Assembly: GCA_016722945.1 (NCBI GenBank)
Contig: JAEQMT010000010.1
Span: forward strand, 823,765 to 887,764
DNA length: 64,000 nucleotides
Reading direction: 5' to 3'
Origin: Desulfofustis sp. PB-SRB1
Lineage (GTDB): Bacteria; Desulfobacterota; Desulfobulbia; Desulfobulbales; Desulfocapsaceae
The notes under the pieces were generated by a model. The model was not told the DNA's origin and ran no database searches. It was given only the letters and a program-made list of their open reading frames with translations. The translations under genes and the position numbers were made by a program. Numbering within the stretch: the stretch's first letter is position 1; every line of letters begins with the position of its first letter. Positions 29,832 through 38,727 of the stretch are shown piece by piece.

Positions 29832-30206
29832 TTATGCCTTCCAGAGGCCATGCAGGTTGCAGTACTCGCGTACTTCAACCTCGGCTGCCTGCACCGGAAA
29901 AAATGCCTTGGGCTCCTGGCCCGGGCTGAGAAATTCCTTGTAAGAAATGCCGCCGGCGTTGAGCTCGATCCACTCGATCCAGTGTTTTTCTTCCATAGGG
30001 TGGGCTACGGAGCCGACTGAAACCTCATAGCCGCCCTCAACCTTGGTAACCACCGGGACATGCTTCTCGGTGGCGGCATCGACGGTGTTTTCCGCCTTCA
30101 GCACCATGTCCTGACCGCAGCAGACCAGGGCGCCGGGGCCGCCTGCCAGTACTTCGACGATGTTTCCACAGATGTTACATTTGTACACTTCAAGTTTCTG
30201 AGCCAT
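29832..30206 (-). CDS. dfx: Desulfoferrodoxin (superoxide reductase)
   Basis: A 124-aa two-centre superoxide reductase that reduces superoxide to peroxide without making oxygen. Center I is a desulforedoxin-like site at the N-terminus (CNICGN ... VCCGQD). Center II ligands are in [15 protein letters not shown] and the C-terminal CNLHG. The start at ATG 30206 has AAGGAG upstream. It usually works with rubredoxin, which is present at 38566, and points to an anaerobe or microaerophile that meets oxygen. Confidence 0.95.
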
Positions 30207-30645
30207 GATTTTTCTCCTTTTCATTGCTGGATGAGCCGGGCTTTAGATATGCCGGCAAGATAAGATCGAATGAGCACCACAATTTCGGGCAGGGGTGCCG
30301 GGGAAACGCTGCTACATGTCAATCGTCAATCCAGTCATTAAACCACAGACAGGCCATTGTGGGCAAGCTCAAAAAAGCGGTGCGGAATTCCAATTGTCGC
30401 TGTTGTACGACTGCGCGGGGTTAGGCAGGGCAATGCATGGTTAAGAAGGTCGTTAAATTTTGCATTTTACCCGCATTCCATGCTCTGCCGGGCTTGAGTT
30501 GGGGGAATGAATTTATTATGATACAGTCTGTTTTTCCCTTAAAAAGTTGGATGATGTGGTTACTATAGTAAAGTGTAGGAAATTTAACAAAAACGATATT
30601 TTTATTCCCCAAAAACTAGCAAAAACGAAAATGGAGGTTGTTGTG
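30207..30645. other. Divergent intergenic region between dfx and the oxidase operon
   Basis: A 439-bp gap that must contain promoters for dfx (minus) and the DOMON/oxidase operon (plus). A perfect 12-bp palindrome TTACTATAGTAA lies at 30560-30571, 74 bases before the DOMON start, and may be an operator. A Shine-Dalgarno GGAGG is at 30633-30637. No gene is supported in the gap. Confidence 0.45.
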
Positions 30646-31990: not shown

Positions 31991-32011
31991 TTCTAGTTTC
32001 GGATGTGCATT

Positions 32012-33652
32012 ATGACCACGACGACGTACAAATCATTTTATGAGACCTCATCGCCTCCAGGGCAAACCGGGATCAGGGCATGGCTGCTTACTCATGATCA
32101 CAAGCGCCTCGCGCTCATGTATCTCTGGGCCGTTTTTTTCTGGTTTATCGTTGCCCTGTTTATCGGTCTTGCCATTCGCACCGAGCTGATGACGATCGGC
32201 GAAACAATCATGAGTGCCCAGGTGTATAATTCTTCTTTTACCCTGCACGGGGTGATCATGATTTTTCTGTTCGTGATTCCCGCCGTACCCGCTATTTTCG
32301 GCAACTTTATTCTGCCAATCCAGATCGGTGCCGATGATGTGTTTTTTCCGAGGCTAAATTTGTTTTCCTGGTATTTGTATATGTTCGGCGGGTTTTTCGC
32401 GGTATTTTCGCTGTTCTGGGGAGGCGGATTTCCCGATACCGGCTGGACCTTTTATGTACCGTTTTCGGTGACCACGGACAGTAATGTATCGCTCACCGTT
32501 ACCGCCGCGTTTATCCTGGGCATGTCGTCCATGCTCACCGGTCTAAATTTTGTCACCACGGTGCATCGTATGCGGGTCAAGGGGATGGGCTGGATGCAGA
32601 TCCCACTTTTTACCTGGGCAATTTACGCCAGTGGCTGGGTACAGATTCTGGCAACGCCGGTGGTTTCCATCACCTTTGTGCTGGTCATTATCGAACGCCT
32701 GCTCGACATCGGCCTGTTTGATCCCAATCGAGGCGGTGACCCGCTGTTGTATCAGCACCTGTTCTGGATGTACTCTCATCCGGCGGTCTATATCATGATT
32801 CTGCCTTCCATGGGGGTCATTTCTGAAATCATTCCGGTCTTTTCACGCAAGGCAATATTTGGCTACAAGGGCATTGTCGTCTCTTCCATGGCAATCGCCA
32901 TCGCCGGCTCACTGGTATGGGCGCACCATATGTACACCAGCGGTATGAGCGATGTGTCGGTTTTTGTCTTCTCGCTGCTTACCTTTCTGGTTGCTATTCC
33001 AACGGCGGTGAAGGTCTTTTCCTGGGTGTCGACCATGTACAAGGGCTCGATTGAGATGACACCGCCGTTTTATCTCTCGTTAATATTCATCTATCTGTTC
33101 ACCGTTGGCGGTCTGACCGGACTGGTGCTCGGCGCCGCCGGCACCGACATTCACGTTCATGACACCCATTTTGTGGTGGCTCATTTTCATTTTGTCATGT
33201 TTGGCGGTACCGGCTTTGCCTTCATTGCCGCACTTTACTACTGGTGGCCGAAAATGTTTGGGTTGATGTACAACTTCAAGCGGGCCTATATCGGCGCTAC
33301 CCTTGCCGCGGTGGGTTTTGTTTTTCACTATGTACCCATGCTGATTCTGGGGCTTATGGGGATGCCGCGCCGCTATTTTGATTATTTACCGCAGTTTGAG
33401 CTGGGCAACTTTCTCTCCGGCTTTCCCGGATTTATCATGGTGTTCGGGATCATGCTGCTCATTGTCAACCTGTGGCTCAGTTTCCGCGAGCGGGTTGCGG
33501 CGCCGGCCGATCCATGGGGCGGCACCACCCTAGAATGGAAGGTTCCCTCGCCACCGCCGGTGCACAATTTTATTGAGCAACCCCAGGTCATGGAGTATCC
33601 ATACGACTTTTCCGAAGTTGTGGGCAAAGCAACCGCACACACCGCAAAATAG
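32012..33652 (+). CDS. ctaD: Cytochrome c oxidase subunit I, A2-type
   Basis: About 546 aa, twelve membrane helices, carrying the heme a and heme a3-CuB sites. The low-spin heme His lies in FTLHGVIMIF. The CuB site is in YSHPAVYIM, where YS upstream of the His and Ala in place of Glu mark the A2-type proton channel. The later HH pair is in WAHHMYTSGM and the heme ligands in HDTHFVVAHFHFVMFG. The start is ATG 32012 or, less likely, 32003; neither has a strong ribosome site. It acts with subunits II, III and IV downstream to reduce oxygen. Confidence 0.95.
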   Translation: MTTTTYKSFYETSSPPGQTGIRAWLLTHDHKRLALMYLWAVFFWFIVALFIGLAIRTELMTIGETIMSAQVYNSSFTLHGVIMIFLFVIPAVPAIFGNFILPIQIGADDVFFPRLNLFSWYLYMFGGFFAVFSLFWGGGFPDTGWTFYVPFSVTTDSNVSLTVTAAFILGMSSMLTGLNFVTTVHRMRVKGMGWMQIPLFTWAIYASGWVQILATPVVSITFVLVIIERLLDIGLFDPNRGGDPLLYQHLFWMYSHPAVYIMILPSMGVISEIIPVFSRKAIFGYKGIVVSSMAIAIAGSLVWAHHMYTSGMSDVSVFVFSLLTFLVAIPTAVKVFSWVSTMYKGSIEMTPPFYLSLIFIYLFTVGGLTGLVLGAAGTDIHVHDTHFVVAHFHFVMFGGTGFAFIAALYYWWPKMFGLMYNFKRAYIGATLAAVGFVFHYVPMLILGLMGMPRRYFDYLPQFELGNFLSGFPGFIMVFGIMLLIVNLWLSFRERVAAPADPWGGTTLEWKVPSPPPVHNFIEQPQVMEYPYDFSEVVGKATAHTAK

Positions 33653-33664
33653 TAAGGACACCGC

Positions 33665-34261
33665 ATGGAAAAAGCGATCGACAGAACCGGTATTAAAATC
33701 GGGATGTGGATATTTCTCTACTCGGAGATAATCCTTTTTGCCGGTTTATTTGTCCTGTATGCCGTCTATTTCCACTTTTACCCCGATGATTTCGTGGCTG
33801 GCGGTCTGGAACTCAACCGAATTTTCGGTACCGCCAATACCCTGGTTCTGTTGATCTCAAGCTTCACGGTGGCGGCTTCCATCACCGCTGTCAGTAACGG
33901 GAAGAAGAATCATGCGATCGGTCTGCTGCTGTTTTCCCTTTTGTGTGGTTTGACCTTTTTAATAAATAAGTACTTCGAATGGGGGGCCAAGTTTCATCAC
34001 GGCCTCTATCCCAATTCCGATTACCTGCTTGACAGCGAACCCGGCCTGCAGATCTTTTTTGGCCTGTACTACACGATAACCGGCCTGCATGGCATACATG
34101 TCATCATCGGCATGGTGCTGCTGGCAATTTCGCTGGTGATGGTCATAAACAACAGGGTTACAGCCGAGCGCATTTCGATGCTCGATAACAGCGGTTTATA
34201 CTGGCACCTGGTGGATCTGATCTGGATTTTTGTGTTTCCGCTGTTTTATCTGGTTTTGTAG
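33665..34261 (+). CDS. ctaE: Cytochrome c oxidase subunit III
   Basis: A 198-aa membrane protein with about five helices, matching the short form of CtaE seen in bacterial oxidases. Family residues are in LYSEIILFAGLFVLYAVY and GLHGIHVIIGM, with a terminal YWHLVDLIWIFVFPLFYLV. It starts twelve bases after ctaD, so it is co-transcribed. It supports assembly and proton-uptake stability of subunit I. Confidence 0.92.
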   Translation: MEKAIDRTGIKIGMWIFLYSEIILFAGLFVLYAVYFHFYPDDFVAGGLELNRIFGTANTLVLLISSFTVAASITAVSNGKKNHAIGLLLFSLLCGLTFLINKYFEWGAKFHHGLYPNSDYLLDSEPGLQIFFGLYYTITGLHGIHVIIGMVLLAISLVMVINNRVTAERISMLDNSGLYWHLVDLIWIFVFPLFYLVL

Positions 34262-34270
34262 ATGCTCACG

Positions 34271-34292
34271 CGGCCCGCTCGGAAGCGGGCCG
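34271..34292 (+). terminator. Hairpin between ctaE and ctaF
   Basis: CGGCCCGCT and AGCGGGCCG pair over nine bases around a CGGA tetraloop just after the ctaE stop. Within an operon this may act as an attenuator or mRNA-stability element; no T run follows. Confidence 0.5.
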
Positions 34293-34348
34293 GGGGTGAG
34301 GAATACCAACCAACCTGACTTTAACTTCTCTGAAAGCTGGAGAACTTT

Positions 34349-34645
34349 ATGACGAACAACGACCACTCTGACGAGCATCACGTGCTGAGCTATCGTTTTC
34401 TGGCGACAGTGCTGGCCGGGCTCATCGCGTTAACCGGGCTGACTGTAGGGGTTTCTTACATCGATTGGGGATTTCTCAACGTTCCCATTGCTCTGGCTGT
34501 CGCCTCCACCAAAGCGACCCTGGTGCTGCTTTTTTTCATGCATATTCGCTACGAGGGTTTCACCATCAAGGTATCGTTCATCACCACCGTTTTTGTGGTG
34601 GCGATTATGATCAGCTTCACATTCTGGGATGTGGCATTCCGTTAA
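34349..34645 (+). CDS. ctaF: Cytochrome c oxidase subunit IV family protein
   Basis: A 98-aa membrane protein with three helices (LATVLAGLIALTGLTVGVSY, LAVASTKATLVLLFFMHIRY, FITTVFVVAIMISFTFWDVA). This is the prokaryotic COX4 family, a small subunit of the oxidase. The N-terminus is acidic and soluble. It follows subunit III after a hairpin and precedes subunit II by 22 bases. Confidence 0.88.
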   Translation: MTNNDHSDEHHVLSYRFLATVLAGLIALTGLTVGVSYIDWGFLNVPIALAVASTKATLVLLFFMHIRYEGFTIKVSFITTVFVVAIMISFTFWDVAFR

Positions 34646-34667
34646 GCACTGATATTAAGAGATTCTC

Positions 34668-35264
34668 ATGGATCCGGTAAGAGGCGTAGATCTGGCATTT
34701 TGGTATATCATCGGGGTATCGTTTCTTTTTCTGGTCGGTATCGGGGTGGTGATGGTCTATTTTGTAATCAAATACCGGCGTTCTAAAAATCCGATACCCA
34801 CCGATATTCGCGATAATCTCAATCTTGAAGTGGTGTGGACGGCGATTCCCACGGTCATCGCCCTGACTATGTTCTGGGTGGGATGGGAAGCCTATCTCGG
34901 GCTTCGTGCTCTTCCCGAAGACGCGCTTGAGATTGAGGTCGGTGGTCAGCAGTATTCCTGGATTTTTTTATATCCCAACGACAAGGAGACCGAAGGGGAG
35001 TTGGTGGTGCCCTATGGTTCGGCGGTAAAACTCAACATTACCTCATGGGATGTGCTCCACAGCTTTTACATTCCATCATATCGGATTAAGGTGGATTCGG
35101 TTCCCGGCATGACCACCTATGCCTGGTTCAATGCCGATCGGCTCGGTGAATTTGATATCCTCTGCACCGAATACTGCGGCATCGATCACGCCTATATGCT
35201 TGCCAAGCTCAAGATCGTTCCCGAAGAAGAATACCTCGCCTGGCTGGAAGAAGATTCGTACTGA
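34668..35264 (+). CDS. ctaC: Cytochrome c oxidase subunit II
   Basis: 198 aa, with two N-terminal membrane helices and a periplasmic cupredoxin domain that takes electrons from cytochrome c. The CuA motif is complete: CTEYCGIDHAYM, plus the distal DVLHSFYIPS His. There is no fused cytochrome c domain, so a separate electron donor is needed. It sits after subunit IV, not before subunit I as in many operons. Confidence 0.94.
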   Translation: MDPVRGVDLAFWYIIGVSFLFLVGIGVVMVYFVIKYRRSKNPIPTDIRDNLNLEVVWTAIPTVIALTMFWVGWEAYLGLRALPEDALEIEVGGQQYSWIFLYPNDKETEGELVVPYGSAVKLNITSWDVLHSFYIPSYRIKVDSVPGMTTYAWFNADRLGEFDILCTEYCGIDHAYMLAKLKIVPEEEYLAWLEEDSY

Positions 35265-36439: not shown

Positions 36440-36658
36440 ATGGGGGCGCAACCGAAGCTGAAGAAGAAATGTTGCGGAAAGCTAAAGAAGAAAGGAAGCT
36501 GCTGTAGTCGGTGTCCGTTGGCTGTAAGCTTGGGCCTGCACTCGTCAGGCAAGAAGAAATGCGCCGCCTGCCCGGTGGACAAGAAAAGCAAAAAGGGCGC
36601 GAAGAAAAGCAAATCAAACGGTAAAACCAAGAGCGCGGCAAAAATGAAGAAGAAATAG
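36440..36658 (+). CDS. Small Lys/Cys-rich protein of unknown function
   Basis: 72 aa, about a third lysine, with eight cysteines as CC, CC, CxxC-like (CCSRC) and CAAC. The N-terminal half reads LKKKCCGKLKKKGSCCSRCP, the middle has a short hydrophobic run AVSLGLHSS, and the tail is KKSKKGAKKSKSN-rich. It starts at the ATG at 36440 with only a weak GGTG upstream. It lies 36 bases before the probable selenoprotein, so both may share a transcript. Metal or nucleic acid binding is possible; I do not recognise a family. Confidence 0.55.
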   Translation: MGAQPKLKKKCCGKLKKKGSCCSRCPLAVSLGLHSSGKKKCAACPVDKKSKKGAKKSKSNGKTKSAAKMKKK

Positions 36659-36693: not shown

Positions 36694-37038
36694 ATGCATA
36701 TTTCCTGGGCGTATCTGAGAAGTGGCTGAGTATCGTGCAAAAAGGCCCGGGCGGCGTTTGCGCACAATGATGCGGTAATTGAAGAGGAAGTAAATGCCTC
36801 AACCCAGACCGTCGGTCCTGAGCAGGTGTGGGATCTACTTTCCTCGGCACAACGTGTTTTTGTGGCCAGTGGTTCCAAAAACGTCTTTGTCTATCACCCG
36901 GATGAGACCAACCGCGAAGAGTTGACTGCTAAGGCTACCGGGCGAACAGGCAACTTGCGAGCACCGGCGGTGCGCCACGGCGCCGATCTCTACGTGGGGT
37001 TTAACGAGCCGTTGTTGGCCGGGCTTCTGAAGAGTTAG
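36694..37038 (+). CDS. Spx/ArsC-like thioredoxin-fold protein with in-frame TGA, probable selenocysteine at residue 12
   Basis: 114 residues if TGA 36727-36729 is read as Sec. The start ATG 36694 gives HISWAYLRSG-U-VSCKKARAAF. Spx and related ArsC-like proteins have SCTSCRKAR here, so U12 stands for the first Cys of the CxxC and C15 for the second (UxxC). Downstream the fold is normal: GPEQVWDLLSSAQRVFV, then GRTGNLRAPAVRHG and LYVGFNE, as in Spx-type C-termini. The frame is open on both sides of the TGA, and an alternative start after it would lose the active site. A hairpin follows at 36737-36761. It is a plausible redox enzyme in glutathione- or thioredoxin-linked reduction; the substrate is unknown. 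The 3' end overlaps the convergent flavodoxin-like gene by 38 bases. Confidence 0.8.
36737..36761 (+). promoter_or_regulatory. Candidate bacterial SECIS hairpin
   Basis: GCAAA pairs with TTTGC, then an internal loop, then GCC with GGC around a CGGGC loop. The loop begins 19 bases after the TGA and has a G in its second position. This fits the position and loop pattern I recall for bacterial SECIS elements, in which the hairpin is just downstream of the UGA inside the reading frame. Confidence 0.5.
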
Positions 37039-38565: not shown

Positions 38566-38727
38566 TCAGCCGTCATACTTCCAGAATGCTTCCTGCTCAG
38601 CGCCGCAGACCGGGCAGACCCAGCTCTCCGGCAGATCTTCCCAGGCGGTTCCAGGATCGACACCGTTTGCGTAATCACCTTCTTCGGGATCATAAATATA
38701 GCCGCACGGGCATTCCCATTTCTGCAT
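38566..38727 (-). CDS. Rubredoxin
   Basis: 53 aa, below the usual gene-finding cut. A small iron electron carrier. It reads [35 protein letters not shown]. The second site is the normal CxxCG, but the first is C-P-C-G, one residue shorter than the standard CxxCG. The aromatic core residues (W, Y, F/W) and the DLP loop are present. Start ATG 38727 behind AGGAG. It probably donates electrons to desulfoferrodoxin or the peroxiredoxin system; the odd spacing may change the iron site. Confidence 0.88.

Follow-up and report, generated by a model that had tools for sequence, protein, structure and literature searches.

Does the in-frame TGA codon at positions 36727–36729 of the window (the whole 64,000-nucleotide stretch of Desulfofustis sp. 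PB-SRB1 DNA that was analysed) end a reading frame, or does it encode selenocysteine, and what kind of protein would then carry it?

Reading frame and family identity

When TGA is translated as selenocysteine (U), positions 36694–37038 of the forward strand encode an ArsC-like protein of 114 residues that ends at a TAG stop codon and contains a single in-frame TGA, at codon 12. The translation reads MHISWAYLRSGUVSCKKA...GRTGNLRAPAV...LYVGFNEPLLAGLLKS up to the stop or, with a longer elision, MHISWAYLRSGUVSCKKA...RTGNLRAPAVRHGADLYVGFNEPLLAGLLKS. The recoded codon opens the active-site motif U12-V-S-C15, in which the putative resolving cysteine, Cys15, is encoded by the TGC codon at 36736–36738 (+) and is invariant across the homologues. 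Under the standard code (table 11) the sole open frame is a GTG-initiated ORF at 36826–37038 that lacks the active site, as the first-pass annotation had anticipated for a gene finder starting past the TGA. The Shine-Dalgarno sequence upstream of the ATG is weaker than in most relatives.

The read-through protein scores 103.4 bits (9.5e-30) against NCBIfam model NF041106 (ArsC_rel_Se_1, 'ArsC family (seleno)protein') and so exceeds the curated cut-off, which is set at 85 bits. The match runs across the TGA from residue 3 to residue 105, covers model positions 1–104 of 107, and includes the UxxC/CxxC motif of the family as U12-V-S-C15. All 46 homologues match the same model, and the window copy is one of the lower-scoring members, with 95.7 bits in the order-wide search, in which the best reached 133. 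No significant family was returned by a Pfam scan of the protein, and among the libraries scanned NCBIfam alone recognised it. The gene shares with NF041106 the full-length match, the UxxC motif, the length and the occurrence of both selenocysteine (Sec) and cysteine forms, and differs from it in no essential respect.

This family is already established and catalogued, and the window gene is hence no discovery. NF041106 is listed as 'Arsenate reductase-like protein' with the motif UxxC in a selenoproteome table (PMC13188914), and a protein with the same name and motif is placed under COG1393 elsewhere (PMC9312934). The 'Arsenate reductase 2' of the Global Ocean Sampling marine metagenome, reported in 2008 with a UxxC motif, 42 Sec forms and 238 Cys homologues (PMC2398784), appears to be the same family. 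On the combined sequence evidence, the window gene is almost certainly a genuine selenoprotein of this ArsC-related UxxC family. Existing selenoprotein family models thus cover the gene, while gene prediction with the standard code would drop its active site.

Predicted fold and comparison with Spx and ArsC

The AlphaFold model, built from 46 sequences, has a mean pLDDT of 95.6. Its structure matches are led by Spx, YffB and ArsC-related proteins, followed by NrdH and glutaredoxins; the scores are moderate, with TM at about 0.5 and a highest Z of 8.7. Spx is also the best PDB match by sequence profile. At the superfamily level, this bears out the earlier description of the protein as Spx/ArsC-like. 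In the model, residues 42–67 form a helix and two strands (alpha-beta-beta) that interrupt the core after strand 2, ahead of its next helix. The fold thus predicted has a core like that of glutaredoxins, and its insert occupies the position at which ArsC and Spx also have one, made up of helices in their case. The thioredoxin-fold core and the N-terminal UxxC/CxxC are common to NrdH and glutaredoxin-type redoxins, including the UXX-star selenoproteins, but these lack the segment of about 35 residues (residues 35–70) by which the family of the window gene separates strand 2 from the core helix that follows.

Because Spx leads both the PDB sequence and the fold matches, we considered whether the protein could be a regulator of the Spx type, with RNA polymerase as its binding partner and the UxxC pair serving as a redox switch. 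Spx and YffB share with it the position of the (U/C)xxC motif, which falls on the CxxC of Spx, the C-terminal R-P and GFNE-like blocks and the fold class, and a redox switch would be compatible with the oxygen-defence neighbourhood described below. Identity to the window protein is, however, about 15–25%, and its scores against the Spx models fall far below their cut-offs (17.8 bits versus 123 for NF002459; 15.4 versus 152 for NF009885). Its insert is predicted as a helix plus beta-hairpin, as opposed to the helices of Spx. Catalysts, moreover, use selenocysteine more typically than switches do. A regulatory role of this kind is therefore improbable.

Slightly less probable still is a true arsenate reductase (ArsC) with selenocysteine as its catalytic nucleophile. 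The family name and fold class suggest such an enzyme, the fold matches include the ArsC structures of E. coli and Vibrio, and a profile search with TIGR00014 (arsC) found no match elsewhere in the genome. The window protein itself is not matched by TIGR00014 either, and the likeness to E. coli ArsC lies in the fold class. E. coli ArsC requires the arginine triad Arg60/94/107 (PMC3169414). In an alignment based on Spx, rather than a direct ArsC alignment, a serine that is variable in the family occupies the position of the arginine in the STRS segment of Spx, and the invariant alanine of the RAP block that of the second arginine of the Spx RRP. If these two Spx positions correspond to Arg60 and Arg94 of ArsC, as we infer, the triad is apparently not kept, which makes a general selenol/thiol redox role likelier than arsenate reduction. 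The window protein further has a resolving cysteine within its UxxC motif, as against the lone active-site cysteine of ArsC, and no ars genes adjoin the window gene. Arsenate reduction by this protein is thus unlikely.

Conservation of the TGA codon

The family was found in 122 of the 194 sampled genomes of the order Desulfobulbales, and 117 of these 122 carry one in-frame TGA inside the match. Occurrence of the TGA in this isolate only, which would have spoken against selenocysteine, is thereby contradicted. More TGA forms occur beyond the order, within the phylum. Among named relatives, genomes of Desulfofustis and Desulfobulbaceae are the closest. The five genomes without a TGA in the match are all species of one genus, and the three that were read have cysteine (TGT).

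We extracted 45 homologous genes, of which 42 have TGA and three TGT, all at the position of U12. The extraction demanded an ATG and the pattern W...R.G[U/C]xxC, leaving out four loci that did not fit. Across 46 sequences, the invariant columns include W5, Y7, R9, G11, U/C12, S14, C15, R89, A90, P91 and G102, so that [U/C]xSC is invariant, although for the columns of the extraction pattern this is partly a result of selection by that pattern. Differences in DNA from the nearest relatives fall mostly on third codon positions after the TGA, and the 11 codons before it show the same tendency; at 45–56% identity dN/dS is saturated, and only such position-wise differences are informative.

That the TGA is a real stop, leaving either a pseudogene or translation from the GTG at 36826, is the reading that table 11 gives with its one open frame (36826–37038), but it is already contradicted by the conservation data and has next to no probability, as both sides of the TGA are conserved across many genera, the site holds TGA but never TAA or TAG among the matches listed, with cysteine as the alternative, and the genome encodes the Sec machinery.

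SECIS-like hairpin

A putative bacterial-type SECIS hairpin lies within the coding sequence at 36741–36759 (+), about 15–33 nt downstream of the TGA, with the stem AAA.GCC/GGC.TTT and the G-rich loop CGGGC. In the minimum free energy fold it is extended by an outer helix (36735–36738/36762–36765). A hairpin downstream of the TGA, as described in the first-pass annotation, is thus present; its support is comparative, the stability of the single sequence being unexceptional. Its energy is ordinary for its composition when compared with shuffled sequences (z between 0 and −0.45). Thermodynamic stability alone was accordingly discarded as a discriminator, and only comparison between sequences distinguishes the hairpin. 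An Rfam scan gave no SECIS match at the gene, only chance matches.

The Sec forms that were checked have a hairpin with a G in the loop about 20 nt past the TGA, while none of the three Cys forms read has an intact apical stem. By our own scoring scheme, the stem scored a mean of 14.1 in 32 Sec forms versus 9.5 in synonymous-codon shuffles, and 7.7 versus 6.9 in the three Cys forms. The stem occurs in two registers, with pairs at i+j=48 in the clade of the window sequence and at i+j=50 in the others, so that no one covariation structure fits all the sequences. Sec forms mostly keep the stem in either register, usually with GG or at least one G in the loop, and in the Cys forms the window-type stem is broken at its two apical pairs. 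Pairing holds in 82% of cells for the seven nearest sequences, versus 30–63% when the stem is slid, although covariation itself is weak.

Selenocysteine machinery and cysteine forms

Absence of the Sec machinery would have argued against recoding, but profile searches of the genome, run one family at a time, identified selA (611 bits), selB (372 bits, with 646 codons open) and selD (362 bits, with its own in-frame TGA) in the same genome, together with a tRNA-Sec with the anticodon TCA. Family match, Sec machinery, TGA conservation and SECIS-like hairpin are thus concordant with the earlier claim of a selenoprotein, and we infer from them that Desulfofustis sp. PB-SRB1 inserts selenocysteine at codon 12. 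The selD gene with the in-frame TGA (G000:C1:254885-255808) probably encodes a further selenoprotein, of a known kind.

Four of the five genomes with Cys forms keep selA, and the fifth is an incomplete and more contaminated assembly. In the genomes that keep selA, cysteine therefore occupies position 12 without loss of the Sec pathway, and we rejected the Cys forms as a sign of such loss. The three Cys forms that were read (loci L012, L028 and L036) come from one genus, whose members mostly have selA, and probably represent a replacement of selenocysteine by cysteine with loss of apical hairpin pairs.

Genomic neighbourhood and proposed role

Upstream of the gene lie cytochrome oxidase genes (32003–35264, +), named from their sequence, and a UbiA-family gene that resembles, and probably is, a haem O synthase gene. 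Genes for an FMN_red-like flavoprotein, AhpC and rubredoxin follow downstream on the opposite strand, and a desulfoferrodoxin gene is located at 29832–30224. In relatives with sufficient flanking sequence a flavoprotein, rubredoxin, AhpC or ferritin recurs, the ferritin adjoining the gene. The argument from neighbourhood does not extend over the whole order: any of the neighbours of the window gene were seen only at loci L001–L005 and L020, although most other loci span only about 1.5 kb on each side.

We propose that SelB and tRNA-Sec would read the UGA at codon 12 as selenocysteine, with the hairpin inside the coding region as their guide. Sec12, located at the N-terminal end of helix 1, would act as the attacking selenol and Cys15 as the resolving thiol, and the resulting Sec12-Cys15 selenenylsulfide would be reduced again by a cellular thiol donor. 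Its most likely function would then be that of a fast disulfide- or peroxide-linked reductant in oxygen defence. A role as a redox enzyme working through such a cycle is likely. The neighbouring cytochrome oxidase, rubredoxin, AhpC and flavoprotein, and the ferritin of relatives, support a link to oxygen or peroxide defence, without proving it, and we consider the chances of this link to be about even. That the family acts more specifically as an Spx-like, oxygen-sensing selenol switch or as a selenol reductant dedicated to the adjacent peroxiredoxin/rubredoxin/oxidase defence cluster is doubtful; to our knowledge, neither function is known for any ArsC-fold selenoprotein.

Further features of the neighbourhood were observed. 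The cytochrome oxidase genes are of the cytochrome c oxidase type and adjoin oxygen-defence genes in this Desulfofustis relative. The rubredoxin gene (38566–38727, −; 53 residues) is easily missed, as a longer and probably spurious ORF overlaps it in another frame. Just upstream of the selenoprotein gene, an ORF at 36440–36658 (+) encodes a Lys/Cys-rich protein of 72 residues (KKKCCGKLKKKGSCCSRCPL...), for which Pfam gave no match. Loci L001, L003 and L004 have similar ORFs, with the motif CCGKxxKKxKHCxSCPL, upstream of the gene.
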